NCBI RefSeq assembly: GCF_004364865.1
Contig: NZ_SOAU01000001.1
Span: forward strand, 124,001-188,000
Length of the DNA: 64,000 nucleotides
From: Ilumatobacter fluminis
GTDB lineage: Bacteria; Actinomycetota; Acidimicrobiia; Acidimicrobiales; Ilumatobacteraceae
Direction of reading: 5' to 3'
Shown: positions 20,228 through 48,562 of the stretch, in pieces
How the letters are laid out: each line of letters begins with the position of its first letter
Numbering within the stretch: position 1 is the stretch's first letter
Program-made: the position numbers and the translations under genes
The notes under the pieces: generated by a model
Databases searched by the model: none
Told to the model about the DNA's origin: nothing
What the model saw: the letters and a program-made list of their open reading frames with translations, nothing else

Positions 20228-20249
20228 CGCTTACCGGCTCCCGGATCGG

Positions 20250-20894: not shown

Positions 20895-21052
20895 GGTTCT
20901 CCTGCTCTCTCGATCGACTCGTGATGAGGCGGAGCCGAACCACACGTCTCGCAGCTGACACCCGCGAACTGCTGCAGATCGTGACCCGCCGCCGAGCAAC
21001 CGGTTCGCCAACCGGAGCTCGACATCTGGGACCGTATCGCCTCGGGCCTCGC

Positions 21053-21981: not shown

Positions 21982-22677
21982 ATGAAGACGAAACCACGAG
22001 CAGTCGTGCTGCTCAGCGGAGGACTCGACTCGACGACGGTCCTCGCCGCTGCCCAGAACGAGGGGTACGAATGCTATGCCTTGAGCTTTGACTACGGGCA
22101 ACGACACGACGTCGAACTCGAAGCCGCGCGGAAGGTGGCAGAGGCGATGGGTGCGGCCGACCACGTCATTGCCAAGATCGACCTGCGGTCTTTCGGTGGT
22201 TCGGCTCTGACCGCCGACCTGGAGGTCCCCAAGGGACGCGCCATCGACGAGATGGAGTCTGGAATCCCGATCACGTACGTGCCGGCGCGCAACACGATCT
22301 TCTTGTCCTTCGCCATGGCCTGGGCTGAGACGCTCGAGGCTTCGGACATCTTCGTCGGGGTCAACGCCCTGGACTACTCGGGTTATCCCGACTGCCGGCC
22401 CGAGTTCATCGAAGCCTTCGAGCGGATGGCCAATCTGGCGACCAAGGGTGGGGTTGAAGGCACAACAAAGACTGTGATCCACGCACCGCTCATGGAGTTG
22501 ACGAAGGCAGGCATCATCGAGTTGGGCCAGACCCTCGGGGTCGACTACGGGCTGACGCATAGTTGCTACGACCCCGACGATGCTGGTCGGCCCTGCGGAC
22601 AGTGCGACTCCTGTCTGCTCCGCGCCAAAGGTTTTGCGGAGGCCGGATTATCTGATCCAGCGCTCAACGTGGCATGA
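21982..22677 (+). CDS. queC: 7-cyano-7-deazaguanine (preQ0) synthase QueC
   Basis: A 231-residue ATP-dependent enzyme that converts 7-carboxy-7-deazaguanine to preQ0. The PP-loop is SGGLDSTT (residues 12-19). [14 protein letters not shown] and [17 protein letters not shown] are QueC signatures. The C-terminal zinc site is [19 protein letters not shown]. The length is normal for the family. It opens the long island operon and overlaps queE by four bases (ATGA). Here preQ0 is very probably made for DNA modification by the dpd genes downstream rather than only for tRNA. Confidence 0.97.
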
Positions 22678-23309
22678 GCTATCGAGTCAAGGAGATCTTC
22701 TACACGCTGCAAGGGGAGGGCGCCCGCGCTGGCCGTGCTGCTGTCTTCTGTCGCTTTGCCGGCTGCAATCTCTGGAGCGGCCAGGAGCGCCACCGCCCGA
22801 CAGCCATCTGCCAGTTCTGTGACACCGACTTCGTCGGCACCGACGGGCCCGGAGGCGGCAAGTTCTCGACGGCTGACGAACTCGCCGCGGCCGTGGAAAC
22901 AGCGTGGGCCGGCAACTCGACGGATCGGCGGTACGTGGTTTGCACGGGAGGCGAACCACTCCTCCAGTTGGACGAGCAGGCCTGCGCCGCATTGCGGGAG
23001 CGTGGTTTCGAGATCGCGATCGAGACGAACGGCACGATCGAGGTGCCGAGCGGCGTGGACTGGATCTGCGTGAGCCCGAAGGACGGTGCCGCACTCGTTG
23101 TGCATTCAGGAGACGAACTCAAACTGGTCTTCCCGCAAGCGGGCCTTCAGCCCGCAGAGGTGTCGGAGCTTGACTTCGAGCACTTCTACCTTCAGCCGAT
23201 GGACGGCGAACATCGAGCGGAGGCAACTGAACAGGCGGTGGCGTACTGCCTTGAGCACCCTTCTTGGCAGTTGTCGTTGCAGACCCACAAGCTGATCGGA
23301 ATCCCGTGA
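22674..23309 (+). CDS. queE: 7-carboxy-7-deazaguanine synthase QueE (radical SAM)
   Basis: A 211-residue radical-SAM enzyme that contracts 6-carboxytetrahydropterin to 7-carboxy-7-deazaguanine. [18 protein letters not shown] is the QueE N-terminus. The cluster-binding cysteines are C31, C46 and C49 in the CX14CX2C spacing seen in many QueE proteins, instead of the classical CX3CX2[12 protein letters not shown] is the SAM-binding GGEP region. The gene shares four bases with queC and one base with queD, so translation is coupled. Confidence 0.96.
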
Positions 23310-23668
23310 TGGAGATCTTTCGCGAGTTCACCTTCGAGGCCGCTCACCGACTGCCCAACGTCAGCGAAGGACACAAGTGCGGTCGTCTCCACGGCCACTC
23401 CTATCGAATCGAACTGCATGTTGACGGGGAACCAGATGAACGAACCGGCTGGGTGATGGACTTCGCAGAGATCAAGCAGGCGTTCGCACCCATCCTTGAT
23501 CGGCTGGATCATCACTACCTCAACGATGTGCCGGGGCTGGAGAACCCGACGAGTGAGACGCTCGCTGCTTGGCTCTGGAGCCAACTCGATGGCGACCTGC
23601 CGCTATCCAAGGTTGTCGTACGCGAGACCTGCACGTCAGGTTGCGTCTATCGAGGGCCGGCATCGTGA
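23309..23668 (+). CDS. queD: 6-carboxytetrahydropterin synthase QueD
   Basis: A 119-residue enzyme that turns dihydroneopterin triphosphate into 6-carboxytetrahydropterin. The zinc His ligands are H13 (EAAHRLP), H28 and H30 (CGRLHGHSY), with catalytic Cys24. MDFAEIK and LDHHYLND are standard QueD motifs, and [11 protein letters not shown] closes the fold. The start is ATG at 23309, overlapping the queE stop by one base (TGATG). The folE2 GTG overlaps its stop. Confidence 0.96.
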
Positions 23669-24486
23669 ATGTCTCGCTTGAGGACGTGCAGGGTCGCCCC
23701 GACGAGCGTGCGATCTGTCTGCAGCGGGCAGGCGTTGAAGCCCTGCGCTATCCCGTGGATGTTGCGGACACGACAGGAGATGCCCAGTCATCAGTTGCCA
23801 ACTTCGACCTCTCGGTCGAGTTGCCGGGCCACATCAAGGGCACTCACATGAGCCGGTTCGTTGAAGCGGTGGCGGCTCTTTCCGACCCGTTGTCGCCGAC
23901 GAGCATCGGCGGACTAGCCGAGGACGTTCGGGCGAGGCTCAAAGCCGAGTCGGCGACGATTCGAACGAGCTTCCCGCTGTTTCTCGATCGTGCAGCCCCG
24001 GCAACTGGGGCTACCGCCAAGCTTGAGTACTCGTGCGCGCTGACCGCCGTGGCTGCATCGAGTGCCCGACGAACCGTGGTGAGTGTGCGTGTTCCAGTGA
24101 CGAGTTTGTGCCCGTGCAGCAAGGCGATCAGCGACTACGGCGCCCACAACCAACGAGGACAGGTGACGATCGCCGTTGACATTGGCGACTCGTCGAGCGT
24201 TGGTCTCATCGATCTCATTGGGATTGCGGAGGCGTGTGCGTCCTCGCCGGTGTACCCGTTGGTTAAGCGACCCGACGAGCGCGTGATGACCATGACGGCC
24301 TACGACAAGCCGGTGTTTGTCGAGGACATGGTTCGCGACTCGGTTGCGATGGTCGCTGGCAAGTGGCCAGGCCTCGAGTTCAGCGTGCTTGCACAAAATG
24401 AAGAGAGCATCCACCACCATGCCGCCTTCGCAGAGACGTGGTCGCCGGGCTTCGACCACAGACTGGCGCCCACGCACCGTGACTAG
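23665..24486 (+). CDS. folE2: GTP cyclohydrolase FolE2 (type IB)
   Basis: A 273-residue enzyme that makes dihydroneopterin triphosphate from GTP, the first step to preQ0. The family is recognised by [36 protein letters not shown] (conserved Cys of the metal site) and the C-terminal [13 protein letters not shown]. It is the IB type, which can use metals other than zinc; most described dpd islands use the zinc-dependent IA type (folE). The start is GTG at 23665, overlapping the queD stop by four bases. It overlaps the next gene by eight bases. Confidence 0.95.
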
Positions 24487-25420
24487 GTCAACGACGACGC
24501 GACTGGTTGTCTCCTGCTCGAACCGCAAGTCGGCAACGACTCCAGATGGCCTGATGGCGAGACATTTGGATCCGTCCATAGCTGTTGCGAAGCGGTGCCA
24601 ACAGTGGGTCGAATGCCTGAGCGATTCTGACGCGATGGTCGTACCAGCTGAGAGCTTGTATCAGGGTGAGCACTGGACGGTGTCGACGTCGATCCCCGCC
24701 CTCGCGCCGCGAGGGCGGCAGGTGGAGTTGTGGGTTGCGTCGGCGGGCTACGGCCTTATCCGAAGTACGGCCCCGCTTCGGTCGTACTCGGCAGCGTTCA
24801 GCGACGGTGCTGATCGTGTCGCGGTTGGAGGCGACAGGAGTGCTTGGTGGTCAGAACTCGCAAACTGGGAAGGGCCTGAACCCGGCCAACCTCGGACGCT
24901 CGCCAGCCTCGCAAAGTCCCACCCCAAAGACAGCCTGCTCGTAGCCCTGTCGCCGCCGTATCTTCGCGCCTGCGTCGATGATCTCCTGGCGGCACGTTCC
25001 ACTCTCGCTGATCCATCGCAGATGACGGTTGTCTGCCTCGGTGGCCAAGCCCCTCCTGGGCTGCGCGATTCGGCGCCGCCAGTAGATGCCCGGGTGCAGG
25101 CGGAACTCGGCGGGTCGCGTCAGGCACTCAACGCTCGAGTAGCGCGCTACCTGGTGACTGAGCGAGCCGACTCGAGTCTGCTGGAGGCGACAAAGGCGCT
25201 CGAGATGCTCGTGTCCAGGCAACCCGAACTTCGGCGCTTCGATCGGACCCCGACGAGCGATGACCGTGTCTCCGCGTTCATCCGACGCCGTGTGGATGAA
25301 GACAGTTCCGCCACGAAGACAGCGTTGCTTCGGGAATACCGAGCCTCCGGCTTTGCCTGTGAGCAGCATCGGTTTGGCAGATTGTTCAAGGAGGTGCTGG
25401 CGAACAATGGGCCGCAGTGA
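24479..25420 (+). CDS. Candidate DpdC; DUF6884/YaaA-like protein
   Basis: A 313-residue protein. GTG at 24479 overlaps folE2, and its end overlaps dpdB. The N-terminus LVVSCSNRKS, the AESLYQGEHW segment and WVASAGYGLIRSTAPLRSYSAAF resemble the DUF6884/YaaA-type fold, often found with TGT-like and archaeosine enzymes. The C-terminal ~60 residues are helical (SAFIRRRVDEDSSATKTALLREYRASG). In the studied Salmonella Montevideo island, DpdC turns the inserted preQ0 base into its amide (ADG). All other dpd letters are accounted for here and this gene adjoins dpdB-dpdA, so it is the best dpdC candidate. That assignment is by position and elimination, not by a recognised catalytic motif. Confidence 0.5.
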   Translation: MTRSTTTRLVVSCSNRKSATTPDGLMARHLDPSIAVAKRCQQWVECLSDSDAMVVPAESLYQGEHWTVSTSIPALAPRGRQVELWVASAGYGLIRSTAPLRSYSAAFSDGADRVAVGGDRSAWWSELANWEGPEPGQPRTLASLAKSHPKDSLLVALSPPYLRACVDDLLAARSTLADPSQMTVVCLGGQAPPGLRDSAPPVDARVQAELGGSRQALNARVARYLVTERADSSLLEATKALEMLVSRQPELRRFDRTPTSDDRVSAFIRRRVDEDSSATKTALLREYRASGFACEQHRFGRLFKEVLANNGPQ

Positions 25421-26555
25421 TTCCGCAAGGGAGTACTTCGTCAGACGGGCGCTCCAACTGCATCAGTCGGAGCAGACCGCCCTCTACTTCTTCTCGCTTA
25501 CGCCGGGAGAGATTCTGAAGATCGCAGACATCTCTCGCATCGCGAGGGATGATGCGGGCGACTTGATCGGCTACCAACGACCGTCGGTACGTCAGCACAT
25601 CAAAGAGATCACTGAGTACCTTGACGGCGACGAGGTGTTGTTCCCGAATCCGATCATCCTGGCACTCTCGCCGTCAGCGCGGTTCATCGGCAGTCGTGGT
25701 CCACACGTTTCGGACGGGTTGGCCTCTTCGGGGTCGATTGAGATTCCGGTTCCGCTGGACGGCGAACGGAAACCAGGGTGGATCGTCGATGGGCAGCAGC
25801 GCGCCCTTGCTCTCAGCCGGTCGCAGCGCACCGACCTCGCTGTCCCCGTCAGCGCGTTCGTGACGCATTCGGTCGATCTTCAGCGCGACCAGTTCTTGCG
25901 AATCAACAACACGAAACCGTTGCCACGCGGACTGGTGACCGAACTGCTGCCGGCTGTGAGCGGTTCCTTGCCGCCTCGACTCTCCATGAGGAAGACGCCC
26001 TCGGCTGTATGCGACGTTCTCAATCAAGACGCCAACTCACCGTTCGTCGGATTGATCCGTCGTCCTTCGACGCCGGTGGAGCAGCGCAGAGCTGCGATCG
26101 TCACCGACACCAGCATCGTGAATATGGTCAAAGAGAGTTTTCAACCGACCGGATGTCTCTTCGTCTATCGGGATGCGGCTTCCGGGGAGACCGACTTCGA
26201 CCAGGCACTGGCCGCTCTCAACCTCTACTGGGCCGCAGTGAGGGACACCTTTCCTGACGCTTGGGGGAAAGACCCGAGACACAGCCGTCTCATGCACGGC
26301 GCCGGAATCAGAGCGATGGGTCGTCTGATGGACCGGATGCTGACCGCGGTCAATCCGCGTCGGGAGGGAGCGGCAGATGAGGTTCGGCGCCAACTGTCGG
26401 CCATCGCGCCGCAGTGCCACTGGACCAGCGGTAGGTGGGAGACACTCGGACTGGAGTGGAATGAGATCCAGAACGTTCCGCGCCATATCAACGAACTGTC
26501 CAACCACCTGTTGCGACTGCATGCGGCACTTGACGACGTGGGGGCACACGCATGA
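25407..26555 (+). CDS. dpdB: DpdB, DGQHR-motif protein, first copy
   Basis: A 382-residue protein of the DGQHR/DndB-like family with the signature WIVDGQQRALAL (DGQQR at residues 128-132). RINNTKPLPRGLVTELLP and MHGAGIRAMGRLMDRM are further family blocks. In the known system DpdB is an ATPase needed with DpdA to put preQ0 into DNA. The start is ATG at 25407, inside the end of the previous gene; its end overlaps dpdA by four bases. A paralogue follows dpdA at 27808 with the same block order (LVNSTKPLPRSLIYELIPG, VHGAGIVAMGFLMDAM) but clear divergence. The two may form a heteromer around DpdA. Confidence 0.9.
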   Translation: MGRSDSAREYFVRRALQLHQSEQTALYFFSLTPGEILKIADISRIARDDAGDLIGYQRPSVRQHIKEITEYLDGDEVLFPNPIILALSPSARFIGSRGPHVSDGLASSGSIEIPVPLDGERKPGWIVDGQQRALALSRSQRTDLAVPVSAFVTHSVDLQRDQFLRINNTKPLPRGLVTELLPAVSGSLPPRLSMRKTPSAVCDVLNQDANSPFVGLIRRPSTPVEQRRAAIVTDTSIVNMVKESFQPTGCLFVYRDAASGETDFDQALAALNLYWAAVRDTFPDAWGKDPRHSRLMHGAGIRAMGRLMDRMLTAVNPRREGAADEVRRQLSAIAPQCHWTSGRWETLGLEWNEIQNVPRHINELSNHLLRLHAALDDVGAHA

Positions 26556-27811
26556 GGTTCTTCTTCCCGGACAGTCAGGATCAGGTCGATCCGATGTTCG
26601 ACTTCGTCACGGAGGAGCATCCCGTCCATCGAATTCGGCAGCGCGACGACCGCTACGCACACGAGGTTCTGCAGCACCGACCGTTCGATGGCTTGCTCAT
26701 TTCGAAGTCGATCGTCGATGGTCACGGCGCACGGACCAGTGCCCGGTACACCGCCGGTGCTCGGAATCGTCTGTACCGTGAGCGCGCCCGGCGGTTCTTT
26801 CGACTCGACGAGGTCCATCGCGACGTCCTGATCATGGGCGACTGCGGCGCGTTCACCTACTTCAACGAAGAAGAGCCTCCATACTCGGTCGCTGAGGTGC
26901 TGGACTTCTACGAGTACTGCGGACTCGATTGGGGGGTCGCTCCGGACCACATTGTCTTCGGGTTTGTCCGAGACGGCGACCCGATCCCGGACGAGATGAT
27001 CTCTGAATGGGAACGGCGTCTCGACATCACGCTCAACAACGCCAGGTTGTTTCTTGACGAGGTCTCCCGGCGAAACTGCGACATCGTCCCGATCGGGGTC
27101 GCGCACGGATGGAGCGCCGACTCCTACGCCCAATCGGTGAGTGATCTTCAAGACCTCGGATACGTCAAGATCGCCATGGGCGGCATGGTTCCTCTTCGCA
27201 GCAATGACATCGTCAGCAGCCTTGAAGCCTCGAGCGGTGTGAGGAAGCCCGAGACCGAACTCCATCTACTGGGCATCACCCGAGTGGACGAGATGCGCCG
27301 CTTTGCTCAGCACGGCGTGACGTCGTTCGATAGCACCTCGCCGTTTCGACAAGCGTTCAAGGACGACACCGACAACTACTACACGCTCGACTCAACCTAC
27401 GTGGCCATCAAGGTTCCGCAGGTCGACGGAAACGCCTCGCTCAAGCGGCAGATCAAGGCCGGCAAGGTGGACCAGCGCGCCGCGATCCTCGCCGAGCGAA
27501 GTTGCCTCGAAGGACTCCGTGCGTACGACGCCGGCGAGTTGCCCGTCGAACAGGCGCTGCAACGCGTCCTCGACTACGAAGACCTGGTCGGCGTGAAGAA
27601 GACACGCGAAGCCGAGTACCTCCGTACGCTTTCGGCGCGTCCGTGGAAGGACTGCGGCTGTGGAATCTGCGAGGAAGCCGGTATTGAGGTGATCATGTTT
27701 CGAGGCTCTGAGCGCAACAAGCGACGTGGCTTCCACAACCTGGCCGTCTTCCGAGACCGCATCTCGCGAAACGGCTTTCACTCTCTGCAAACGACTGGAG
27801 AACACACGTGA
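26552..27811 (+). CDS. dpdA: DpdA, TGT-like DNA guanine transglycosylase
   Basis: A 419-residue base-exchange enzyme that replaces guanine in DNA by preQ0, related to tRNA-guanine transglycosylase. The active-site Asp residues are recognisable as D97 (MGDCGAFTY) and D260 (SFDSTSPFRQAF). GVAHGW and IAMGGMVPLRSNDI match TGT substrate-binding regions. The C-terminus has a Cys cluster, CGCGIC...H (about residues 368-392), for zinc. It differs from bacterial Tgt in the FDSTSP block and in its C-terminal domain, both typical of DpdA. It is overlapped by four bases on both sides by the two dpdB copies. It is the hallmark gene of the island. Confidence 0.96.
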   Translation: MRFFFPDSQDQVDPMFDFVTEEHPVHRIRQRDDRYAHEVLQHRPFDGLLISKSIVDGHGARTSARYTAGARNRLYRERARRFFRLDEVHRDVLIMGDCGAFTYFNEEEPPYSVAEVLDFYEYCGLDWGVAPDHIVFGFVRDGDPIPDEMISEWERRLDITLNNARLFLDEVSRRNCDIVPIGVAHGWSADSYAQSVSDLQDLGYVKIAMGGMVPLRSNDIVSSLEASSGVRKPETELHLLGITRVDEMRRFAQHGVTSFDSTSPFRQAFKDDTDNYYTLDSTYVAIKVPQVDGNASLKRQIKAGKVDQRAAILAERSCLEGLRAYDAGELPVEQALQRVLDYEDLVGVKKTREAEYLRTLSARPWKDCGCGICEEAGIEVIMFRGSERNKRRGFHNLAVFRDRISRNGFHSLQTTGEHT

Positions 27812-28932
27812 CCGTCTCCGACCAAGCTGTCGAGTTGCGCTTGCCGGCGCTTGCGATTACCCAATCGCCCGGCAGGGTGCTGTATCAGTTCGCCGTCGAT
27901 GGCAAACTCCTCGACGACTTCGCAACCGTGTCGCGGATACGCCGCGACGACGAATCGGCGGTGCAGGGCTATCAACGACCCGAATCGCTTCAGCACATCA
28001 CAGCGATTCGAAAGTACATCGAGTCCGACGCTCCGATGATCCCGAACGGAATTGTCATCGCCTTCGACGACCGCGTGCGTTTCGAACCGTCGGTTAAGTC
28101 CGACACCTACTCGGTTCCGGGCGAGATCGTCATCCCAGTCGATGTCAGCGAGGCGCCCGAACTGCGACCAGGTTGGATCGTCGATGGCCAGCAGAGAACG
28201 GCGGCGATTCGCGACGCCAATGTCTCACAGTTTCCGATTCCCGTCACGGCCTTCATCACAGCGAACGAAGAGGAACAGCGAGAGCAGTTCATCCTCGTCA
28301 ACTCCACGAAGCCCCTGCCACGCAGCCTGATCTACGAGCTCATCCCTGGCACCACCGGCATGCTCCCGCCGAGTCTTGCGCGGAGGAAGATCTCTGCCGA
28401 ACTGCTCGATCTTCTGAACTGGGACAGCGAGTCGCCGTTCCACTGGCGGATCCAAACGCCGACGAACCCTGAGGGAGTGATCAAGGACAACAGCATTCTC
28501 CGCATGCTCGACAACTCGATCATCGAGGGATACCTCTACAACTTCAGAGATCCAGTCGATGGAACTGGCGACCTCGAGGCCATGGCCACCGTCGTGAACG
28601 ACTACTGGACGGCAGTAAGCCTGGTCTTCCCGGGCGATTGGAACTCGACGCCACGAAAGTCCCGGCTCGTGCACGGCGCCGGCATCGTCGCAATGGGATT
28701 TCTCATGGACGCAATGTGCGACCGACTTCGCGACGAGAATCGTCTGAACGTCGATGGGTTCCTGGCTGAGGTGAGCCTGATCGCCGACTCCTGTGCCTGG
28801 TCGTCAGGCGAGTGGGAGCTCGCTTCCGGCACGAAACGGAAGTGGAACGACTTCCAGAACACCTCGAAAGACATCCAGATCCTCGCAAACCACGTGCTGG
28901 CGGCGTACCGAAACTCTCGTCGGACACGGTAG
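27808..28932 (+). CDS. dpdB: DpdB paralogue, second DGQHR-motif protein
   Basis: A 374-residue paralogue of the protein at 25407, with WIVDGQQRTAAI (DGQQR at residues 126-130), NSTKPLPRSLIYELIPG and RLVHGAGIVAMGFLMD. It starts four bases inside the dpdA end (GTGACC). Known minimal systems are described with one DpdB, so two copies flanking dpdA may reflect subunit specialisation or different target preference. Both copies keep the motif and full length; neither looks degraded. A 79-base gap to dpdE follows, the largest inside the core operon, so dpdE could have its own promoter. Confidence 0.88.
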   Translation: MTVSDQAVELRLPALAITQSPGRVLYQFAVDGKLLDDFATVSRIRRDDESAVQGYQRPESLQHITAIRKYIESDAPMIPNGIVIAFDDRVRFEPSVKSDTYSVPGEIVIPVDVSEAPELRPGWIVDGQQRTAAIRDANVSQFPIPVTAFITANEEEQREQFILVNSTKPLPRSLIYELIPGTTGMLPPSLARRKISAELLDLLNWDSESPFHWRIQTPTNPEGVIKDNSILRMLDNSIIEGYLYNFRDPVDGTGDLEAMATVVNDYWTAVSLVFPGDWNSTPRKSRLVHGAGIVAMGFLMDAMCDRLRDENRLNVDGFLAEVSLIADSCAWSSGEWELASGTKRKWNDFQNTSKDIQILANHVLAAYRNSRRTR

Positions 28933-29011
28933 GTACCACCACTGGACATGAGATACCGAGTGGTTCAGCAGCACCAACCCAAGTTTGCGGAGGCGGTCAC
29001 CGCCTGACACA

Positions 29012-32000
29012 ATGCCGGCCACTGTGCGGGACAGTGTGGAGTTGAGAACGGCCACGGTGGGCCATCTTGTAGCAACCCCTTTGGGGGTTGGTCGGTTGCT
29101 GAGCATGCAAGAGGGGGTGGCGCGTGTCCGCTACTTCAAGGGTCCGTCAACCGACCCTTACGTCGTGCGAGAGGTTGTCGACGAGGATGTGTCGACGGCG
29201 AGGCTCCGCCGCCACACGCGTGTCTACTTCCATGACGGGAACCGATGGAGAATCGGGCGGATCGACGCCGAGCAAGCGGATGAAGACGGTCGATTCGTTG
29301 TGGCTATGCCGAACGGGTACGGCCAGGTCCTCGGCGCAGAGAGCTTCGATGTCAGGTGGAACTTGCCTATCTCCGACCCGTTTGAGTTGTTGGCCGTGGG
29401 CGGCGGAGATAGCCCGGTGGTCTACGAGCCGCGAGTCGATTTGATCTCGAGTTGGTACGAGCAGCGTGCTGCTGCCGCCGGAGTCGAGGGTCTCCTGCTC
29501 GCCTCGGTCGAGTTGCATGCCCACCAGTTGAGTGTCGTGCGCTCGGTCTCAAACGACGCCGTCCGCCGCTACCTCCTCGCCGACGAGGTCGGACTTGGCA
29601 AGACAATTGAGGCCGGCGCACTGGTGTGGCAGGAACTCAGGGCGAACTCATCTGCCAGCGTCCTCGTACTTGCACCTGAGCACTTGCGGCAACAGTGGGC
29701 CGAGGAACTCGTTGACAAGTTCCATCTCGGTGAGTTCAACGATGCGCAGATCCGAGTCCGGTCCCATGGGGACCACGACTCCTGGCCGACTGAACCAGTG
29801 GATGTACTTGTCGTAGACGAGGCTCATCACCTGACCCGGGCGGGTCGATCGCAAGAGCACGTGCTCCGGCAACTGGCGTCATTGGCGCACTCGTCGTCGC
29901 AGGTGTTCCTGCTAACTGCTACCCCAGTTCGTTCCAACGAAGCTGCGTTCCTTGACCTGTTGCACTTGCTTGACCCGACCAACTATCGCTTGGACGACTT
30001 GGAGTCCTTTGCGAGGCGGGTGGAGTTGCGCGACGAACTGGCTCTGGTGCACATCGGCCTGTCCCCCGATCTCGACGAGTTCGATCTCTCGCTGTTCTCC
30101 GAGCAGTTGCGATCGATGTTCCCCGAGGACGAACAACTCCTCGCGCACCTGGAACGAGCGGCCAACAGCAGCAACGGCGAACGGCCGGGTCAGATCGAGT
30201 TGGTGAAGAACCACCTGTCTGAGACATACCGACTTCATCATCGGTTGCTTCGAACGCGCCGTACGGCCGAGACACACGAGTCTTTCGGTGTCCGCGGGCG
30301 TCGGCGCGGCCGGCCTTTCACAGTCGAACTCGCCGATGCAAGTGACGAACTCAGAGAGGATCTGATCGAGAGTTTCCGTCTTCATCTCGCCGAGCGGATC
30401 GAATCGGGCGAACTTGAGGTGGGAAGTGCCGTTGCCGCGTTCCGCACCATGTGCGAGTGGTGCTGCTCGCTCCCAACCGCACTGTTGACTGTCGATGGGC
30501 TTGGCGGAGGCCAAGGCTCGGGTGGTGATGAGGCGGCCCGTTGGCTGCAGTCGTTGGGTGGCGGTTGGCGGCGTGACCTGGAGGCGCTGGAACCCGTGCA
30601 GATGGACGCGGCTGTGCGACAGGTAGGCGAGATGGCTATCTCCCGAAACCTTGGCAAGGTGATCGTGTCGACTGGCTACACCAGCGTCGCGAAGGACTTC
30701 GCAGATGCAGTGGAGGCTAAGTACGGGGCCCATCGCGTCGCCCGGCATCTAGACGGTCAGACCTCTGATCAGAACTCCACGAACGCCGAACATTGGAGAT
30801 CTCAGGAAGAGTGCCGGCTCTTCGTGTGCGACGCGAGCGCCGAAGAAGGAGTCAACCTTCAAGACGCTGACGCAATCGTCCATCTCGACCTTCCCTGGGA
30901 GGTCTTCCGGTTGGAGCAACGCATCGGTCGTGCCGACCGGCACGCCCGTGGTGAACGGCGTCCTGTTGCCTCGATGGTGTTTGTGTACGGAGAACAGTCA
31001 TATGGAATGGGGTGGTTCCTCTTCGCAGCGGACTCGTGCGGCGTGTTTGACCGCTCGGTCTCGTCATTGCAGTACGTGCTCGCCGACGTTGAGTCAGAAC
31101 TGCTCGCGAAGGTGATCGTCGAAGGCGTCGCAGTCTTCGATTCCGACGTCGAGGTGCGACATGACCAACTTGCTGCTGAGGGTCATCGCATCGCCGCCCA
31201 TGACTCGCTTGATTCTGCGAAGGGTGAGCATGAACGTCTGAACCAACGCTTGCTCGAACTGGAGTCCCATTCGACGAACGACGGCGCCCTCGTCGATTGG
31301 TTGCGCGGCGTTGGAGCCAAGATCGCACGCCCCTCAAGAGGGTCGATACGGATCGCTGGTCGGCCGCGTCTTCAGGTCCCATTCGAACTCGAAGCCGCAA
31401 TGGCGCCGTGGATGAACCAGGAGTTGACGGTCGACCGGTCGGCCGCTGTTGAACGTCAGTTGCCGCTGGTCCGGGCGGGTCATGGCCTGTTCGACGAGAT
31501 TGTTCGGCACCTGGAGTCTGATGACCGTGGCGTGGCCTTCGCGTTCTCTCGACACGTGAAGAACCATTGGCCACCGACAGTCGTGCTTCGTACGGACTTC
31601 GTCGTCCGAGTCGAGGTGCCACAGAGTGCCAGTTCAGTTGCGGAGAGTGTTGGGCTCGGACATTGGCTGGTGTCGGAGTGCCGGTCGTACGCACCTCCGC
31701 TTCTTGAGACCGTTTTCATGTCCGTTGGCGGCGAGGAAATCGACAGTCGCTCGGTGCTTGCGTACGACCGATCACTTGGTGATCAGAACCTGGGGTCCCG
31801 TCCGGAACTGTTCGAATCGCTGATCCGTCACCTCAACTGGGAGGAGGTCTGCCAGGATGGACTGGCACGGGCCCAACGGATCTTGGAGCGCCGGGCGTCG
31901 GTCGCTTCGAGTCGTCGCGTCGCGGACCATATTCGGGCTTCAACCGGCAGACGCCTGTCGGTCTTGAGTGCACGGCAAAGCAGCGGGGTGGAAGGTGTTG

Positions 32001-34689: not shown

Positions 34690-34701
34690 GAGCCCGAAGA
34701 A

Positions 34702-38603: not shown

Positions 38604-39337
38604 CGCTGTACGACAGAGCGACGGAGCTTCGAGTTCGCTTGGACGCTGCCAACGAAGCTGACGTCGGCGACGAGTTGCTCACCCGAGGGAAGAGCATCCG
38701 GGACCAGCTTTCTGCCGCATCTGAGTACCTTGCTGAAGTGAAGGCATACCGTGAGACCGTCGGCCAAGCGGGTGCTCCGAAGATTGATCCGAAGCGTCTG
38801 CGACAGTCGATCGGCGGATTTCGCGGGGCGCTCGCGAAGAGCGGCCCCCGCGCGTTTCAACAGCAATCAGCTACGACCTTGCTTGAGGTCATCGGGGCGG
38901 AGACGAAACGACTCGACCGGTTTGTTGCCTCAAGCTGGAACGCGCAGTTTGATCAAGCCAAGGCTTCCCTAGAGCGCGTGAAGGAAGGTCAGTTGAATGG
39001 ATCCATCGATCTTCGCACCAGAGCGAGGATGTGCGCCGCGCGGATCTCGACCCTACGCAGCCTCGATCCGATTCGTGAGCGCGCCGAACTCGAAAACCGT
39101 CTCGGCGGCAAGGGCTTAGCTGCTTGTCTCGAGCGTGTCGAGCAACTGATCCATGAACTGAACGAAGCGATTAAGGCAATCGACGATGAGCAGGCAGCTA
39201 TGACCCCGGAGGTTCGGCAAGTGTTGAACCGCTCATCTTCAGCAGCGGGGCTCCCGCTCGCCGAAATCACGGCAGATGATTTGGCCGCCCTTCGGGCCGC
39301 AGGTGTCATCGATGACCTTGTGGTGCGCCGATCGTGA
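38600..39337 (+). CDS. dpdI: DpdI, helical small subunit (by position)
   Basis: A 245-residue, mostly helical protein with no enzyme motif. Heptad-like stretches run through residues 25-100 and 150-205 (LEVIGAETKRLDRF, ACLERVEQLIHELNEAIKAIDDEQAAM). The C-terminus (LPLAEITADDLAALRAAGVIDDLVVRRS) looks like a small capping domain. It is assigned as DpdI because it lies between the DpdH ATPase and the DpdJ helicase, overlapping both by four bases. It may tie the two together. Confidence 0.65.
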   Translation: MTLYDRATELRVRLDAANEADVGDELLTRGKSIRDQLSAASEYLAEVKAYRETVGQAGAPKIDPKRLRQSIGGFRGALAKSGPRAFQQQSATTLLEVIGAETKRLDRFVASSWNAQFDQAKASLERVKEGQLNGSIDLRTRARMCAARISTLRSLDPIRERAELENRLGGKGLAACLERVEQLIHELNEAIKAIDDEQAAMTPEVRQVLNRSSSAAGLPLAEITADDLAALRAAGVIDDLVVRRS

Positions 39338-42300
39338 GGGACGACGATCTCTTTAGCCTGCTTGGTCAACTCGAGGCACGTGAGCTGCCGCTTCTCAGCT
39401 GGGGCGTGACAAACGGCTCTTTCGGCGAGGATGAGATCATCGAAGTGCTGGAGTCGCTTCAGCCTGGCGATGACCCAGAGATGCTGCTCGACGAACTGGT
39501 CGCTGCAGGGCTGGTGCACGAACGGGGTCTGCGCGGCAGCGAGTTCCGGACTCGCATGGCCGAAACGGTACGTCTCGCTCGTCATCTGCGCCAATGGTTC
39601 CACGGGCCCCGGAGCGACTGGCGTACAGCCAAGACGCTCGTGTCTGATATGCGCTTCTTGGCGCGGCATCGCAGCGTGCCTGAGCGCAATGTTACGTCGG
39701 GCGACTTGAGCGAGCGGCTCGGTGCGTTGCTCGGTGACGATTGGACGTCGGCTCATCAAAGCTCGATCGAAGCGGTCCTACGTGGACGATCCGTGTCGCA
39801 GTTCCAGGCCAGGGCGTCAGAACAGCTTCTGGGATCGGTGGGTGCCGGGGGCGGCACATGCGTGACGGCCGGTACCGGGGCGGGCAAGACGTTGGCCTTC
39901 TATCTGCCGGCTTTGGTGCATACTCTGAGCGTCCCGGGTAGTCCTGGAGTGCCGAGGATCGTGGCGATCTACCCGCGGGTCGAACTGCTTCGCGATCAAC
40001 TTGCGTCCCTGTTGACGACGCTCCAAGACTTGGCGAGCCGTGGGGTCGCCTCGCCATCCGTTGGGGTGCTGTACGGAGCCAGCCCGCGAGACCGTGAGGA
40101 TGCCGAAAGGAACCGCCGCCGGGGTTGGCGCCGCTCGCCAAACGGATTGGTCAGTCCAATTGTCTCGTGTCTGAACGAGGACTGCGGTGGCTCCCTCGTT
40201 TGGCCGGACGGGGAACCTGCTGGACGACTGCTGCGCTGCGAGTCGTGTGGTTCTGACGTGACCTCCTTGGTCTTCGATCGCAAGTCCCTGCTGTCGGCGC
40301 CACCCGAGATCGTCTTCACGACGACGGAAATGATCAACCGCAGCCTCGGTGCGCCCCGCATGCGTCGGGTTCTCGTGGGTACACCCTCGGCGGCTCCAGA
40401 CTTCATTCTGCTTGATGAGATCCACACCTACTCGGGTACTCATGGAGCGCAGGTCGCAAATCTTCTTCGAAGGTGGAGAGCCGAGATGTCGGCGCCAAGC
40501 CACGTCGTCGGGCTGTCGGCAACGTTGGCCGACCCGGTCGGCTTCTTCTCTGAGCTGATCGGCGCTGACGCCGGCAACGTCTCAGTTGTCGCACCTGCGG
40601 CCGCAGAGATGCGTCAGACGGGTCGCGAGTATTTCATGGCGCTTCGAGGCGACCCGGCCTCACAAACGTCGTTGTTGTCGACCACGATCCAGACGGCGAT
40701 GCTGATGCGTCGCATGCTTGACCGAGAACCGGGCGTTCCAAGTCGCGGTGCATTTGGGACCAGAGTTTTTGCATTCACCGACAAGTTGGACGTTGCGAAT
40801 CGTCTCCACTCGCAGTTGCAGGACGCCGAGGGTTGGAAGCAGGGCGGCGTAGATCGCAAGCCAGAAGGAAGCCTTGCGTTGCTGCGTGCATCCGGGGACG
40901 AGAACCGCCTTCGCGACGACGTTGGCCAGTTGTGGGACGCGTCCGAGGACATTGGAACTCTGAGTCGCAAAGTCGTCGTCGACCGGACAACGTCGCAAGA
41001 CACGGGGGTGAACCCGAGTAGCGATGTCGTGGTGGCCACAGCGTCGTTGGAGGTTGGCTTTGACGACCCGAATGTGGGCGCAGTGATTCAGCACAAGGCC
41101 CCGCGAGATGCAGCACAGTTCCTGCAGCGGCGAGGGCGCGCTGGTCGTGACCCAAGGATGCGGCCATGGACGACTGTCGTCCTTTCGGACTACGGACGTG
41201 ACCGCCTGTCGTTCCAGTCGTATGAGACTCTCTTCGATCCTCAGATCCCGGCATCTCATCTTCCGGTGAAGAATCGCGTCATTCTGAAGATGCAGGCCAC
41301 TTGGTGGCTGGTTGATCAGTTGACGTATGCCTCAGGAGGCACCCCGCTTCGATCGGTCCTGGAATCGAGTTGGGGCCGCTACCCGGAGCGGCAAGTGGCC
41401 GCAGCGACGGCAGCGCTTGCCGCGGCGACGGACTTCTTGACCGACGAAGGGCTAGGCCGCCTTGAGTCGGGCTTGAAGCGGTCGCTAGCCCTGAGCGACC
41501 TGGACGCCAAAGCAGTCCTCTTTGACCCCCCACGCGCAGTTGTTACATCCGTCCTGCCGACGATCATCCGCCGCCTCGAGGCGGTACTCGGGCGCGACCG
41601 ACTGGGGCGTGAGTTCGTCTGGAACGACCCCCTGACCGACTTCGTGCCGAGTTCGCTGTTCGCCCCGCTTCAGACACCGGAGGTTCGCATTGACCTTCCG
41701 TCGGTTGGGCAGTTTCAGCCCGACCCAGAGGTAGGGCCGATCTCGCAGACCATGCGAGAGTTCGCGCCCGGCCGCGTGAGCTACCGGTTTGCACTTCGGG
41801 GGAAGCGGGAGCGAATGTGGGTGGAACCCCCGGAGTCGAGCGATGCAAAATTCGACCTCGACTCATTCTGCACCGACTTTCTTGTGCTGGAAGCGCCCGA
41901 AGGTGTTGAAGGCGCGGTGTTGCAGCCACGTTCGCTTTCGCTAACGCGCCCAAACGGTCGTGTTCCTGACTCCTCCTACGGTCGGTGGAAGTGGGACTTC
42001 TTCTGGCGGCTGAATGGGACCCCAGTCGAACTGGACGTTCCTGCTCGAAGCCCGTGGGCCACTCGCGTGAGCACGTTGCGGGTGATGACCCACCGGGCAC
42101 TGTCGCCTCTGACTGTTTGGCGAGTTGCACAAGCGGTAGAGATCGAGCGAAACATGGCGGATGAGCCCCAGCGCACTGTCCACCAAGTCCAGTTCGGCGG
42201 ACGCAACGCCGCCGTCGGCTTCAACATGGACGTCGACGCACTCGGGTTCGATCTAGTTCTACCTACCGAGTTGCCAACTGACGGCTCGCCCGCACTGCTC

Positions 42301-43695
42301 CGTGCTCTACGAACGGCCTATTTCGAGCATCTGGTGCAAACCGACGAACTCATCGCTATGCGGGTCGGGTCCCCGTTCCTCCGGAAGTGGATAGCTGAAC
42401 TGGCCCTCAGTGCTTTCACGACGCTTGCCTCGGAAGAAGGCGGCGAGGCCACAACACTTCCCGAGCAGCGCATGGCGTCTGAGATGGTACGGGCGGCCCG
42501 CGTCGTATTCGGGTCTGAGGGACAGTTGGACGATACGGACGAAGGGGGGCGCGCTCCAGCCCTCGTTGAGGACGTCGAGTCGGCGCTCAGCGACACGGAC
42601 GTCGTCGAGTCTCTGGCGAGGTGCGTGCTGGTCTTGAGCGGACCCCTCAACACGGTGGCACTGGGTTGGCTGCATGAGCGCTACGCAGCAACTTTGGCCG
42701 CTGGTGTCGTGGATGCCATACAGGCTCTTTGCCCCGAGTGCGATGTGGAAGAACTCCGACCGGACTTCGTTGTGGTCGAAGAGGAGTCAGGGCCGATCGC
42801 GCGGATCATCATCTCCGAAGATCAACCGGGAGGCACCGGAGTGATCGAGGCTGCAGCCGACAGGATCATGGAGGACGCCCGAGCCTTCTGGGACCTTGTG
42901 GGAAGCGCGCTTGGGCCGAGCGACGGAGAGAGAGTTGATCGGGCGATACGCGAGTTTCTTTGCCTCTGTGACCAAGGTGAGCAGTTGTCGGCCCGGGCGA
43001 GCCGAGTGCGGTCGGCCACCTCCTTGAGCGAAGCCACCGCAGCGTGGGCAACCCTTCGAGAGGCGATGTTCCAAGCAGGGCTCCCGGCCGATCCAACGGT
43101 GGTGAGCGCGCTGTCGACTCGGTTACTGCGACCGGGCAGTGATGCCAGGATCGAGGCGCTTTGCACCGAACTGCTTCAGCAGTGGGACTCACTTGAGGAG
43201 TCGCTCGAGCTCGAGGTCGATCTTCGTGTGTTCGCCTATCTGGCTGCAGGAAGCGGTGAGGTACGGCAGGCCCTGTCCGATCTTGCGGTCACAGTCGATC
43301 AGTCTCCTGAGTGGTCCGTTGGGCAGGTGGCGGGCCTTCTCTGGGCCCGAGGTGGCAACCTTCGCGCGGCAAGCCTGCAGTCGTACAACCCCTACTGCGA
43401 ACTCCCAGCGACCGAACGTTTGCTGTTCGAAGACGTGATAGAGGCGGCAGTGCCCGCCGTGGTGTTCCGGTCTGACTCGCAGCGTTGGCGCGAGGAACTC
43501 GATCGATCGCTTGCTATGCACGCCTCCGCCGAGATCGATTGCGCCGACGAGTTAGCGGCAGCAGTCGCACTGCGTCAGCTAATGACGCAGCCGACAAGCG
43601 TGGGAGTGCTTGAGTTCTATCCTCGCGTCATCGGAGTTCGTCGAAACGGAACCGGACTCCGCTTGAGAGTTGACATCCGCGAGGCGCAGCAATGA
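39334..43695 (+). CDS. dpdJ: DpdJ, very large DEAD/DEAH-type helicase
   Basis: A 1453-residue SF2 helicase. Walker A is AGTGAGKTLAF (GTGAGKT at residues 180-186). A zinc-finger insert CLNEDCGG...LRCESCG lies near residues 280-310. Motif II is ILLDEIHTYSG (near residue 360) and motif III is GLSATLADP. VVVATASLEVGFDDPNVGAVIQHKAPRDAAQFLQRRGRAGRDPRM covers motifs V and VI. A second Cys pair (LCPECDVEEL) is near residue 1134. The start is GTG at 39334, sharing four bases with dpdI. It is typical of the DpdJ subunit of the restriction arm. Confidence 0.87.
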   Translation: MRDDDLFSLLGQLEARELPLLSWGVTNGSFGEDEIIEVLESLQPGDDPEMLLDELVAAGLVHERGLRGSEFRTRMAETVRLARHLRQWFHGPRSDWRTAKTLVSDMRFLARHRSVPERNVTSGDLSERLGALLGDDWTSAHQSSIEAVLRGRSVSQFQARASEQLLGSVGAGGGTCVTAGTGAGKTLAFYLPALVHTLSVPGSPGVPRIVAIYPRVELLRDQLASLLTTLQDLASRGVASPSVGVLYGASPRDREDAERNRRRGWRRSPNGLVSPIVSCLNEDCGGSLVWPDGEPAGRLLRCESCGSDVTSLVFDRKSLLSAPPEIVFTTTEMINRSLGAPRMRRVLVGTPSAAPDFILLDEIHTYSGTHGAQVANLLRRWRAEMSAPSHVVGLSATLADPVGFFSELIGADAGNVSVVAPAAAEMRQTGREYFMALRGDPASQTSLLSTTIQTAMLMRRMLDREPGVPSRGAFGTRVFAFTDKLDVANRLHSQLQDAEGWKQGGVDRKPEGSLALLRASGDENRLRDDVGQLWDASEDIGTLSRKVVVDRTTSQDTGVNPSSDVVVATASLEVGFDDPNVGAVIQHKAPRDAAQFLQRRGRAGRDPRMRPWTTVVLSDYGRDRLSFQSYETLFDPQIPASHLPVKNRVILKMQATWWLVDQLTYASGGTPLRSVLESSWGRYPERQVAAATAALAAATDFLTDEGLGRLESGLKRSLALSDLDAKAVLFDPPRAVVTSVLPTIIRRLEAVLGRDRLGREFVWNDPLTDFVPSSLFAPLQTPEVRIDLPSVGQFQPDPEVGPISQTMREFAPGRVSYRFALRGKRERMWVEPPESSDAKFDLDSFCTDFLVLEAPEGVEGAVLQPRSLSLTRPNGRVPDSSYGRWKWDFFWRLNGTPVELDVPARSPWATRVSTLRVMTHRALSPLTVWRVAQAVEIERNMADEPQRTVHQVQFGGRNAAVGFNMDVDALGFDLVLPTELPTDGSPALLRALRTAYFEHLVQTDELIAMRVGSPFLRKWIAELALSAFTTLASEEGGEATTLPEQRMASEMVRAARVVFGSEGQLDDTDEGGRAPALVEDVESALSDTDVVESLARCVLVLSGPLNTVALGWLHERYAATLAAGVVDAIQALCPECDVEELRPDFVVVEEESGPIARIIISEDQPGGTGVIEAAADRIMEDARAFWDLVGSALGPSDGERVDRAIREFLCLCDQGEQLSARASRVRSATSLSEATAAWATLREAMFQAGLPADPTVVSALSTRLLRPGSDARIEALCTELLQQWDSLEESLELEVDLRVFAYLAAGSGEVRQALSDLAVTVDQSPEWSVGQVAGLLWARGGNLRAASLQSYNPYCELPATERLLFEDVIEAAVPAVVFRSDSQRWREELDRSLAMHASAEIDCADELAAAVALRQLMTQPTSVGVLEFYPRVIGVRRNGTGLRLRVDIREAQQ

Positions 43696-44219
43696 GTGCT
43701 CGAAGCCTGCGAACGACGGCGTACTCGTCCCGTGAGGAACTCGCCGACGTGCTTCAGAGCATTTTCGTGTCAGAGTTGCTCGTTCCAAGCAAACCCCTAT
43801 GGATTGTGAGCCCCTGGATCTCCGACGTACAGGTGATCGACAATCGGACAGGAAACTTCTCGGGCCTCCTCACCGCAATGCCTCAGAGATGGATTCGCCT
43901 CGGGGAAGTGATCGAGCAGCACCTCGGGCGCGGTGGCTCACTCACGCTCGCCACGAGGCCCGACGATCACAATCGGGTCTTCACGGAGTTTCTCAAACGA
44001 CGGACTCGCGAGATCGGCCGGGAACGGAGTCTCCGTGTCGTGATGTCCGCAGACCTTCATGAGAAGGGAATTCTCACCCAGGGCGTGCTCCTCAGCGGTT
44101 CGATGAACTTGACCTACAACGGTCTGCGTCGTCTCGAAGAGGCAGTCCATCTGACCGACGAGGACGACGCGTTGGCACGCGCCCGATCTGCATACCGGGA
44201 TAGGTGGGGTGAGCCATGA
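43692..44219 (+). CDS. dpdK: DpdK, phospholipase D-like protein
   Basis: A 175-residue PLD-fold protein, a single-domain size. The catalytic H-x-K is LHEKGILT (H123, K125), followed by GVLLSGSMNLTYNGLRR, the usual S/N part of the HKD box. PLWIVSPWISDV near residue 37 is the N-terminal strand of the fold. Single HKD proteins dimerise to form one active site, as in Nuc and BfiI nucleases. This makes DpdK the best candidate for a DNA-cutting or phosphodiester-cleaving subunit in the core; that role is inference. Four-base overlaps join it to dpdJ and dpdD. Confidence 0.87.
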   Translation: MSARSLRTTAYSSREELADVLQSIFVSELLVPSKPLWIVSPWISDVQVIDNRTGNFSGLLTAMPQRWIRLGEVIEQHLGRGGSLTLATRPDDHNRVFTEFLKRRTREIGRERSLRVVMSADLHEKGILTQGVLLSGSMNLTYNGLRRLEEAVHLTDEDDALARARSAYRDRWGEP

Positions 44220-46381
44220 CGAGCCTCGAACCCAATGTCGCAGAGTTCTACACGGCGCCCAATGAGATCGACATCGAGAACCTCGGTAGCGATTCGAGGT
44301 CGCTTCTCGATGCGCTCACCACACGTTTGGCTCGCGGTGAGAGAACACTCTTGCCAGCCTCGTTCAACAGCCAGACGCGGTGGTATGGCTTCGCAGCGAG
44401 TGATCGTGACCTCCGTAGGCTCCTCGAAGAACTGTCGGGGTGGCTGGGGCCGCCTCTGTGCGATCGGCCGATAGTCCTGCACAACCCAGAGGACGAGATC
44501 GACAGCCGCGCGTTGCGACTCCTGGCGAATCGGGCCGCAGTTCGAGTCGACATCAACTCGCAATGGCGACGAGAGGCACGGAAGAACGTGCGGTCGCTCG
44601 TCGATATCTGGAGCCTTACGCCGACTCGCCCGACGGGATCTCTGCGGCACGTCGGGCGAGTTCTGCGCGAGTTCTACGAGTCCCTTGCGGTCGGTGACCG
44701 GGTGACCGCTGCAAGCCTGCTGGACGAGATCCGTTCCGGAGGCCTGCTATCGCCCACCAACGTCAGGTTCCTTCGGGTGGAACTCCTCGGGCGCCTCGGT
44801 AGTCCCGAGGAACTTCGGGATGACCCGCTTCTGGCTGAGGTCGCGCTGTTGCGCCGGCCACCTGCGGTTACCGACCACCTCGCCCGTGCCGCCGATCGAC
44901 TGTTCATCCCTGAAGGCGCGGAGGCGTTGGGTGTTGACGACTGGGCCGATCTCGCAACACTTATTGAATCCACGTGGCCGGGGCTGATCCAGCATCCCAG
45001 CCAGGTGCGTTCAGTGGCGGGCGCGAGGTGTCTCGCATTGGCGGAGCATGCTGCCGATGCCCCCCGCCAGAGCACAATCGATGCGCTGCGGTCCGACTGG
45101 TCGGAGGATCCTCTCGTTCGCAGCGTGGTCGAGGCTTTCGATCAGACCTTGGGCTCGGACGGAACGGAAGACTCGAGATCACAAGGTCCTGAAGCGGTTC
45201 TTGATCACTTTCGGTGTGGCGACTTCGAGCGGGTGCTCGATGCAGCCGCTGCCGAGGAAGAAGTGAACAACGGTGTCGCCGTTGCTGCAATGCACGCAGC
45301 CCTCAATCTGGGCGATGCTCGATCTGCGGCTACGGCATTGGAGATCGTCGACCGACTCTGCGCAGACGACAAGCGAGCCCTTCTCGCCCAAACGGTGGAA
45401 GGCACGTTCTACACCCAGTTGCTTGAGCGGAACCAGGGCGAGCGAATCCCTGATGGGTGGATGGAGTGGCTCGTCGATGAGTGGCCGGACCGCCCCGATC
45501 TGCTCGCTGAGTGGTGTTCCGCCTGGGATTCCGGACAGATCAGTGATTGGCGGCTAGCCGACGAGTTGGCAGTGGAGTTGCTCGGTGCGCTCAACGACGA
45601 TCGCCGGGGCCGAGTTAGGAACGGACTGCCGACGTTTGTGGAATGGATGGTGGGCGATGAGGGCCTCAGTCCGTCGGGTGTCGCTCTCGCCGTTCTCACG
45701 GTGGAGGTGTTGCTCGGAAGTGATCCCGGGCGGGCGGAACGACGTATTGCGCTCGATCTGGTCGGTGAGATCCTTGCAACGGGTTGCTCGGCCGACCAGT
45801 ACCGAGAACTGATGGCGAGCCTCCGAGCGCAGTATCAAGTGCTCGGTCCGCGCGAAGTCGGCTGGCTCGTCAGCATGCTTGACCTCATCTTCGTGAGTTC
45901 GGCTCCGGACGAATCAGTTCGACTGCAACTGGCGAGCGAGGCACTCGGCCTGGGTAAGGCGTGGATGGGGCGAGTCGACCTCACCGAGTTGCGGTTGCTG
46001 GCGAGGATCCTTGAGGACGCTGGCCTTGTGCTTGAGGTAGGCGACGTACGCTCCGATGCGTCTGAGCCCGCTCCGCGAAGACCGTTGCACTGCATCGGTA
46101 TCTACTCCCTCTCGGAAACGGCGGCCCGCAACGCCACCCGTTGGATTCAAGAGGAGTGGCCAGACGCCACAATCGAGTTTTCGAGCGCACATCAGAACAA
46201 CCAGGAGTTGCAGGGGTTGGCGGGCAGATCCGACGTCGTGCTGATGCAAACCAGTCATGCGAAGCATGCCGCGACGCAGGCGCTTGAGCGTGCTGTAGAC
46301 GAGACCCGATTGGTTCGAGTCAATGGACGCGGCGCCACAAGCATTTATAGGTGCCTGCTCGACTGGGCTGGCCAACAGTAG
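44216..46381 (+). CDS. dpdD: DpdD family protein
   Basis: A 721-residue protein with no known catalytic motif. The first ~150 residues resemble a regulatory or PLD-like partner domain (GERTLLPASFNSQTRWYGFA). The middle 400 residues are helical, TPR-like in rhythm (alternating Ala/Leu-rich helices). The last ~110 residues form an alpha/beta unit (RRPLHCIGIYSLSETAARNATRWIQEEWPDATIEFSS...DVVLMQTSHAKHAATQALERAV) with a Rossmann-like pattern. The name is by position, size and context at the end of the dpdE-K run. It overlaps dpdK by four bases and ends the tightly coupled core operon. Confidence 0.72.
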   Translation: MTSLEPNVAEFYTAPNEIDIENLGSDSRSLLDALTTRLARGERTLLPASFNSQTRWYGFAASDRDLRRLLEELSGWLGPPLCDRPIVLHNPEDEIDSRALRLLANRAAVRVDINSQWRREARKNVRSLVDIWSLTPTRPTGSLRHVGRVLREFYESLAVGDRVTAASLLDEIRSGGLLSPTNVRFLRVELLGRLGSPEELRDDPLLAEVALLRRPPAVTDHLARAADRLFIPEGAEALGVDDWADLATLIESTWPGLIQHPSQVRSVAGARCLALAEHAADAPRQSTIDALRSDWSEDPLVRSVVEAFDQTLGSDGTEDSRSQGPEAVLDHFRCGDFERVLDAAAAEEEVNNGVAVAAMHAALNLGDARSAATALEIVDRLCADDKRALLAQTVEGTFYTQLLERNQGERIPDGWMEWLVDEWPDRPDLLAEWCSAWDSGQISDWRLADELAVELLGALNDDRRGRVRNGLPTFVEWMVGDEGLSPSGVALAVLTVEVLLGSDPGRAERRIALDLVGEILATGCSADQYRELMASLRAQYQVLGPREVGWLVSMLDLIFVSSAPDESVRLQLASEALGLGKAWMGRVDLTELRLLARILEDAGLVLEVGDVRSDASEPAPRRPLHCIGIYSLSETAARNATRWIQEEWPDATIEFSSAHQNNQELQGLAGRSDVVLMQTSHAKHAATQALERAVDETRLVRVNGRGATSIYRCLLDWAGQQ

Positions 46382-46520
46382 AGGGTACGAGTCGTGGGGC
46401 GTGTCCTACGCATACAGACCTCGAGGAGTCCTTGTTGGAACCGGATGATCGCTCTCAGGTGACCTACGATCCGTATCGGTCGTCGGCGCCTCATTCAGAT
46501 TGCACGGCGGGCCAACTCCA

Positions 46521-48551: not shown

Positions 48552-48562
48552 CAGTTCCTGCC

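Follow-up and report, generated by a model that had tools for sequence, protein, structure and literature searches.

A 64,000-nucleotide stretch of Ilumatobacter fluminis contig NZ_SOAU01000001.1 (the window, in which all coordinates below are positions) carries on its plus strand, at 21982-46381, a sixteen-gene island for 7-deazaguanine DNA modification and restriction (Dpd), and directly behind it two further genes, encoding an HNH nuclease and a third DGQHR-motif protein (DG3), with which the unit probably extends to 48436. Judging from the sequence, it is very likely that the core is a complete and probably working Dpd system. By analogy with DndI and SspE, the HNH-DG3 pair is most likely a second restriction arm controlled by the DNA mark. 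The core adds one more to the known Dpd systems, whereas the HNH-DGQHR extension is a variant worth testing.

The core genes were identified with Pfam, PADLOC and NCBIfam models, NCBIfam matches being judged against curated cut-offs and the PADLOC DpdC model having no curated cut-off. In order, they are:

21982..22677, plus: queC, preQ0 synthase (TIGR00364, 216.8 bits)
22674..23309, plus: queE, radical SAM CDG synthase of the Cx14CxxC type (TIGR04508, 354.3 bits)
23306..23668, plus: queD (TIGR03367, 112.2 bits; start reassigned)
23665..24486, plus: folE2, GTP cyclohydrolase (NF010200, 231.4 bits; start reassigned)
24479..25420, plus: dpdC, predicted preQ0-to-ADG hydrolase (PADLOC DpdC, E 1.5e-64; start reassigned)
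25407..26555, plus: dpdB1, upstream DpdB paralogue by motif and clade, DGQQR kept (NF041060, 428.0 bits; start reassigned)
26552..27811, plus: dpdA, DNA-guanine transglycosylase (NF041059, 561.4 bits, cut-off 200)
27808..28932, plus: dpdB2, downstream DpdB paralogue, motif DGQQR kept (NF041060, 464.9 bits)
28985..32134, plus: dpdE, SNF2-type helicase, start uncertain (NF041062, 738.0 bits)
32131..34689, plus: dpdF, DEAD/RecQ-like helicase (NF041063, 683.2 bits; start reassigned)
34702..35607, plus: dpdG (NF041064, 166.2 bits)
35604..38603, plus: dpdH, P-loop ATPase (NF041065, 611.3 bits)
38600..39337, plus: dpdI, diverged (NF041066, 21.0 bits, cut-off 150; syntenic orthologues)
39334..43695, plus: dpdJ, YprA-type helicase (NF041067, 1353.8 bits)
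43692..44219, plus: dpdK, PLD-type nuclease (NF041068, 195.9 bits)
44216..46381, plus: dpdD (NF041061, 328.8 bits)

Family models are matched by 15 of the 16 genes. DpdI counts against completeness in that its model is missed; the gene is placed by position and by orthologues, 52% and 37% identical, that two related islands carry between their dpdH and dpdJ. All sixteen frames are open from start to stop, and neighbouring genes overlap at 13 of the 15 junctions, usually by 4 bases, but not at dpdB2/dpdE and dpdF/dpdG. For queD, folE2, dpdC, dpdB1 and dpdF the likely start listed is not the first start codon of the frame, and the search queries for these five were shortened, cut near or a few codons behind it. 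Chance is no issue for such a gene set. The initial annotation had already given this content, order, strand and coordinates, with nearly all genes overlapping and all intact, and each of these points is borne out. Its candidate dpdC is matched by the PADLOC model, and the profile hidden Markov model check that it proposed places DpdA, DpdB, DpdD and DpdE above their NCBIfam cut-offs. A search of solved structures with the DpdC sequence returned nothing at E <= 1.

The Asp residues and the metal site of TGT enzymes have catalytic roles. In an alignment with the host's own TGT, DpdA D260, C368, C370, C373 and H395 fall in invariant columns. D97 is invariant in six DpdAs, but it was matched to the TGT Asp by eye alone (GDCGAF against TDSGGF), the alignment being out of register there. 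Thus, of the Asp pair and zinc site initially ascribed to DpdA, D260 and the metal-site residues are aligned with TGT and D97 is matched by eye only. The protein is of the Dpd rather than the tRNA type, scoring 561.4 bits with NF041059 and 16.6 with Q_tRNA_tgt.

Dpd chemistry is described in the available parts of PMC11888242 and PMC12839542. Provided that the island is expressed, FolE2, QueD, QueE and QueC would make preQ0, DpdA with two DGQQR-type DpdB ATPases would exchange guanine in host DNA for it, DpdC would hydrolyse the preQ0 mark, partly or wholly, to ADG, and DpdD-K would attack unmarked DNA. From the intact genes we infer host DNA that carries dPreQ0/dADG and restriction of unmodified DNA.

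The gene set initially delimited at 21982-46381 is right, yet the island was ended one module early, as the following pair comes next:

46500..47318, plus: HNH nuclease, first gene of the accessory pair (PF14279 38.4 bits and PF01844 33.5 bits, both over cut-off)
47324..48436, plus: DG3, third DGQHR-motif protein, second gene of the pair (TIGR03187 86.2 bits, over cut-off; PF14072 29.7 bits, cut-off 29.1)

Between dpdD and the HNH gene lie 118 bases, and between the HNH gene and DG3 only 5. DG3 is not simply a third DpdB; its 75.7 bits with the DpdB model do not reach the cut-off of 300, and its motif is DGQHR, not DGQQR. The motifs QR, DGQHR and FxxxN are invariant in one DG3 alignment (A2), and in another (A4) QR falls outside the shorter Agrobacterium vitis row. 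The Cys, His and Asn residues of the HNH protein are invariant in six homologues, and the HNH catalytic residues and the DGQHR motif are retained down to 25-36% identity. According to the available text of PMC4619093, QR, DGQHR and FxxxN are common to DGQHR domains and the GmrS NTPase.

In motifs and gene context, HNH-DG3 resembles a split DndI, SspE or GmrSD. DndI is a DUF262-HNH nickase that is freed from self DNA by phosphorothioate-stimulated ATP hydrolysis and coexists with the multi-gene DndFGH arm (PMC11662687, available parts, as for the comparison that follows). As in DndBCDE-DndI and SspABCD-SspE, a DGQxR NTPase and an HNH nuclease adjoin a marking operon beside a multi-gene arm (DndFGH there). 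The window has the Dnd layout with Dpd genes, namely a marking operon, the multi-gene arm dpdD-K and a small NTPase-nuclease. In contrast, DndI and SspE are single fused polypeptides with DUF262 and DUF1524 and respond to a backbone mark, not a base mark. Given the GmrS-like motifs, the conserved HNH residues and the DndI-like layout and context, we propose that HNH and DG3 form a second restriction arm, in which the NTPase would read the mark and restrain the nuclease on self DNA, as in DndI/SspE. More tentatively, the pair may be a portable DndI/SspE equivalent, split over two genes, that moves between marking systems of unrelated chemistry, reading a 7-deazaguanine base here and a phosphorothioate backbone elsewhere, and that serves Dpd hosts as a second arm.

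The recurrence of the pair was followed in loci obtained by scanning named prokaryote genomes with an alignment of six DpdA sequences and keeping the best 80 of at least 499 stretches that encode relatives; gene order was read from tblastn with the window proteins, with flanks of up to 10 kb. Four further actinobacterial Dpd islands have adjacent HNH and DG3 genes in the same order, at one of three positions: before dpdC (L038, L051), between dpdB2 and queC (L043) or, in Nocardioides, after folE2 (L094). Their HNH/DG3 identities run parallel (63/73, 63/71, 50/57 and 48/60%). Two cases, in proteobacterial Dpd islands, are weaker. In Agrobacterium vitis the pair lies behind dpdD, one further gene intervening, and is interrupted by an IS5 transposase; in Bradyrhizobium sp. 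41S5 the order is reversed, near dpdA, and the HNH match is under the cut-offs. A more distant pair (HNH 26% and DG3 36% identical) adjoins dndEDCB on the Pseudomonas aeruginosa plasmid NZ_CP133095.1 (L112 11175-18061), with the gene order and spacing of the window but with Dnd genes in place of Dpd. This plasmid is not among the 26 records with a DpdA match, and no dndFGH is annotated in the 25 kb shown around its pair, the PLSDB gene table being incomplete. In its own right, the plasmid pair might serve a Dnd system as restriction partner.

Do the two genes belong to Dpd, or do they merely share its defence island? HNH-DG3 could, beside a Dpd core as described, be an independent GmrSD-like type IV enzyme directed against foreign modified DNA, which we regard as rather unlikely. 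DGQHR domains do resemble GmrS (PMC4619093), the Dnd-linked homologue weakly matches the GmrSD_N model PF03235 (17.2 bits, cut-off 33.2), the left flank holds another defence-type gene, and BrxU adjoins BREX in the same manner (PMC10952713, as far as available). The distribution of the pair argues the other way. Close DG3 homologues (59-73% identity) occur in 4 of 79 Dpd genomes, all four inside the Dpd island (4/49 with the protein query at E <= 1e-10, 0/30 with a profile query at E <= 1e-20), and in 0/792 others, comprising 0/395 other phylum-mates (protein query) and 0/397 other genomes of the phylum of the Marinobacterium genome G514 (profile query). In addition, the sole more distant full pair outside Dpd adjoins another DNA-marking operon. 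Among the 30 profile-searched Dpd genomes, one (G512) has a weaker 98-bit match, and the match in G514 is its own DpdB. The Fisher p for the link is 7e-4 against the 395 genomes and 6e-5 against all 792, but the Dpd set is skewed to islands like the window's, two loci were included knowingly and the queries differed between sets; position inside the island is therefore the stronger argument. In IMG/VR, 59 pattern matches yielded no DG3 relative confirmed by tblastn; DG3 has five weak phage matches of about 24% identity, and the DNA of the P. aeruginosa pair has no match in E. coli.

Alternatively, instead of a restriction arm, HNH-DG3 might be a passenger or a control pair, for instance one that slows marking down, a role suggested for DndB. 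In Dnd systems, marking is under the control of DndB-type proteins (PMC12839542, available parts), 75 of the 79 sampled Dpd genomes do without a close DG3, and 118 bases separate dpdD from the pair. Set against the persistence of the catalytic HNH residues and the DGQHR motif in distant homologues, and against the movement of the pair as a unit through different island positions, this explanation appears unlikely to us.

Several observations weigh against a mark-controlled second arm of the DndI/SspE kind or against the importance of the pair. DUF262 (PF03235) has no match in DG3 at E <= 1, and the DUF1524 HNH domain is unmatched in the window proteins, PF14279 and PF01844 being found instead; membership of the GmrSD/SspE/DndI family is therefore not claimed. 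The AlphaFold models are of low confidence (mean pLDDT 53.0 for DG3 and 54.8 for HNH) and lend no fold support; a Foldseek search with that of DG3 returned 0 matches at E <= 0.001, and no conclusion is drawn from either. A DG3 profile search of solved structures found only peptidyl-prolyl isomerases, at E >= 0.5. Any DG3 match (E <= 1e-10) is present in 29 of 49 Dpd genomes, but 25 of these are only 26-33% identical. The pairing itself is not constant: no HNH-like neighbour is flagged for the DGQHR proteins of roughly 500 residues in L067, L072 and L132, no DGQHR partner is recognised for the HNH gene of L058, and in L107 a DGQQR protein comes with a weak HNH match. In the tree, the six close DG3 proteins group in a single clade whose support is only 43. 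In L038 the HNH match is split between two frames, so that the gene may be broken there, and the genome of that locus (G452) has only a dpdE fragment and no dpdF-K or dpdD within the 60,000 bases covered.

Other DGQHR genes were located in the course of these comparisons. The long ones lie at L067 13177-14694, L072 13246-14811 and L132 799-2358, those of L067 and L072 less than 5 kb from dpdA. On two plasmids (L128 9929-11799 and L129 10004-11933), a DGQHR gene has 1-2 bases behind it an uncharacterised gene (294-299 residues) for which Pfam gives no match at E <= 0.01; these may represent another two-gene unit of the DGQHR kind.

We find no description of an HNH-DGQHR pair in Dpd islands in the literature searched, which includes the available parts of PMC11888242, PMC12839542, PMC12458937 and PMC12707154; subscription papers lie mostly outside that search, and a prior description is possible. 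HNH genes have been noted near dpd islands without the restriction operon (PMC11888242). Since the restriction side of Dpd is hardly explored (PMC12707154) and two genes can be tested far more readily than the eight of dpdD-K, the added pair matters. If the mark that it reads is 7-deazaguanine, the pair would be a natural modified-base sensor of small size, and restriction arms would be traded between base and backbone marks.

The core is an ordinary Dpd system, complete two-dpdB islands being common in Actinomycetota. By their genus names we take 77 of the 80 loci to be actinobacterial, the other three being L035, L090 and L098; Acidimicrobiia metagenome-assembled genomes (MAGs) are among these closest DpdA-relative loci. 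The order dpdB-dpdA-dpdB is found in 66 loci, dpdC-dpdA-dpdB in 12 and dpdA-dpdB with nothing matched upstream in one, and one lacks dpdB. The second dpdB was accordingly dismissed as an unusual feature. Many of these islands also have queC-queE-queD-folE2, whereas only 4 of the 80 loci have a close HNH-DG3 pair within the flanks covered. The upstream DpdBs form one clade of 70 tips with support of 100, alphaproteobacterial members included, and the downstream DpdBs have no clade of their own under the tree rooting used. DGQQR is kept in 70/70 upstream DpdBs examined (63 labelled 'up' and seven labelled 'dnfar' that begin upstream of dpdA) and in 84/85 downstream ones, and because of this conservation in both kinds the two copies in the window are probably both active.

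A GATOR-GC survey counted 2,335 unique dpd islands, 333 of them in Actinomycetota, with intact operons the commonest class and 801 extra dpdB copies (PMC11888242, in the parts available). Within the phylum, 21 of 396 evenly drawn genomes match the DpdA model at E <= 0.001, the cut-off being passed only by the window's own genome, and the window DpdA is matched in 0 of 60 relatives. Given these low counts beside the surveyed islands, the island is a known one with a patchy distribution. Islands of Salmonella enterica Montevideo and Kineococcus radiotolerans share dpdA-C synthesis, dpdD-K restriction and preQ0 genes with the window (PMC11888242); the comparison with these two covers dpdA-K and the preQ0 genes, and a second dpdB, linked preQ0 genes with folE2, and HNH-DG3 are listed here as features of the window. 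Enterobacter cloacae pPOL9A (NZ_CP086409.1) likewise has dpdA, dpdB and dpdD-K, with a DpdA 48.7% identical, but a single dpdB, restriction genes on the opposite strand and no preQ0 genes annotated beside the island.

The synthesis and restriction halves of the island differ in their nearest relatives, so that the island is a mosaic. By best-segment identity, queC, queE, queD, folE2, dpdC and dpdB1 are nearest to loci of Amycolatopsis, Asanoa, Dactylosporangium, Actinomadura, Lentzea, Micromonospora or Planosporangium, dpdA and dpdB2 to a short Actinomycetota MAG contig (L030), and dpdE to dpdD together with the HNH-DG3 pair to Acidimicrobiia MAGs. The restriction half is thus of an Acidimicrobiia kind, unlike other Actinomycetota islands. 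In accordance, the dpdB1 tree places the window with Planosporangium (support 92) within a clade of 23 tips (support 93), and the dpdE and dpdF trees place it with four Acidimicrobiia loci (supports 95 and 93), one genome contributing two of the four. No queC is present in the ten loci labelled Acidimicrobiia, within the sequence stretches covered. The queC tree groups the window with L035 and L043 (support 86), the next node having 28. The dpdH tree has five rows, and dpdI to dpdD are visible in few loci. At 0.620, the G+C content of 21982-46381 is below that to the left (0.705, 1-18999) and to the right (0.668, 48563-64000); the initial assignment to an actinobacterium is consistent with G+C content and with the nearest Dpd relatives.

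The host genome has tgt and queA side by side on the chromosome (C1:2355674-2357880), and the only QueC match detected in it is the island's queC. The island may thus feed tRNA queuosine as well, and a tRNA modification may draw its precursor from a defence island; we offer this as a suggestion only. In nine same-genus genomes, of which three assemblies are 79-83% and one is 74% complete, QueC-model matches are short at most (<=29.5 bits, <80 residues). A QueF-model match in the host (C1:1234208-1234438) reaches 81 bits. The model scores 111-114 bits in five order-mates with a long QueC match and 74-82 in the others having one, and since the host falls in the latter group its match may not be a true QueF. 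Taken further, tgt and queA with no second QueC would fit an island that is silent, or a source of preQ0 for tRNA queuosine more than for DNA marking. With all genes intact and overlapping, and DpdA scoring by the Dpd model far above Q_tRNA_tgt, that explanation is very improbable.

At its left the island is bordered by a stretch of lower G+C content that runs up to queC (19077-21981) and has minus-strand open reading frames at 19751-20227, 20250-21011 and 21053-21670, none of them with a Pfam match at E <= 0.01. Between 18500-22000 and 48300-49200, exact direct repeats reach at most 12 bases, and no integration site is therefore claimed; the 64-kb window has no tRNA genes. To the right, a minus-strand gene at 48563-52033 encodes a TM0106-type RecB-like nuclease with AAA_11/AAA_12 helicase domains and a partial MkoA match; the opposite strand and a higher third-position G+C rule it out as a member of the island. 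The left neighbour, at 13983-19076 on the plus strand, encodes a 1697-residue DUF4011-helicase-nuclease that matches PADLOC PDC-S37 (617.7 bits) and Hhe (302 bits), and the island thus adjoins another candidate defence gene.

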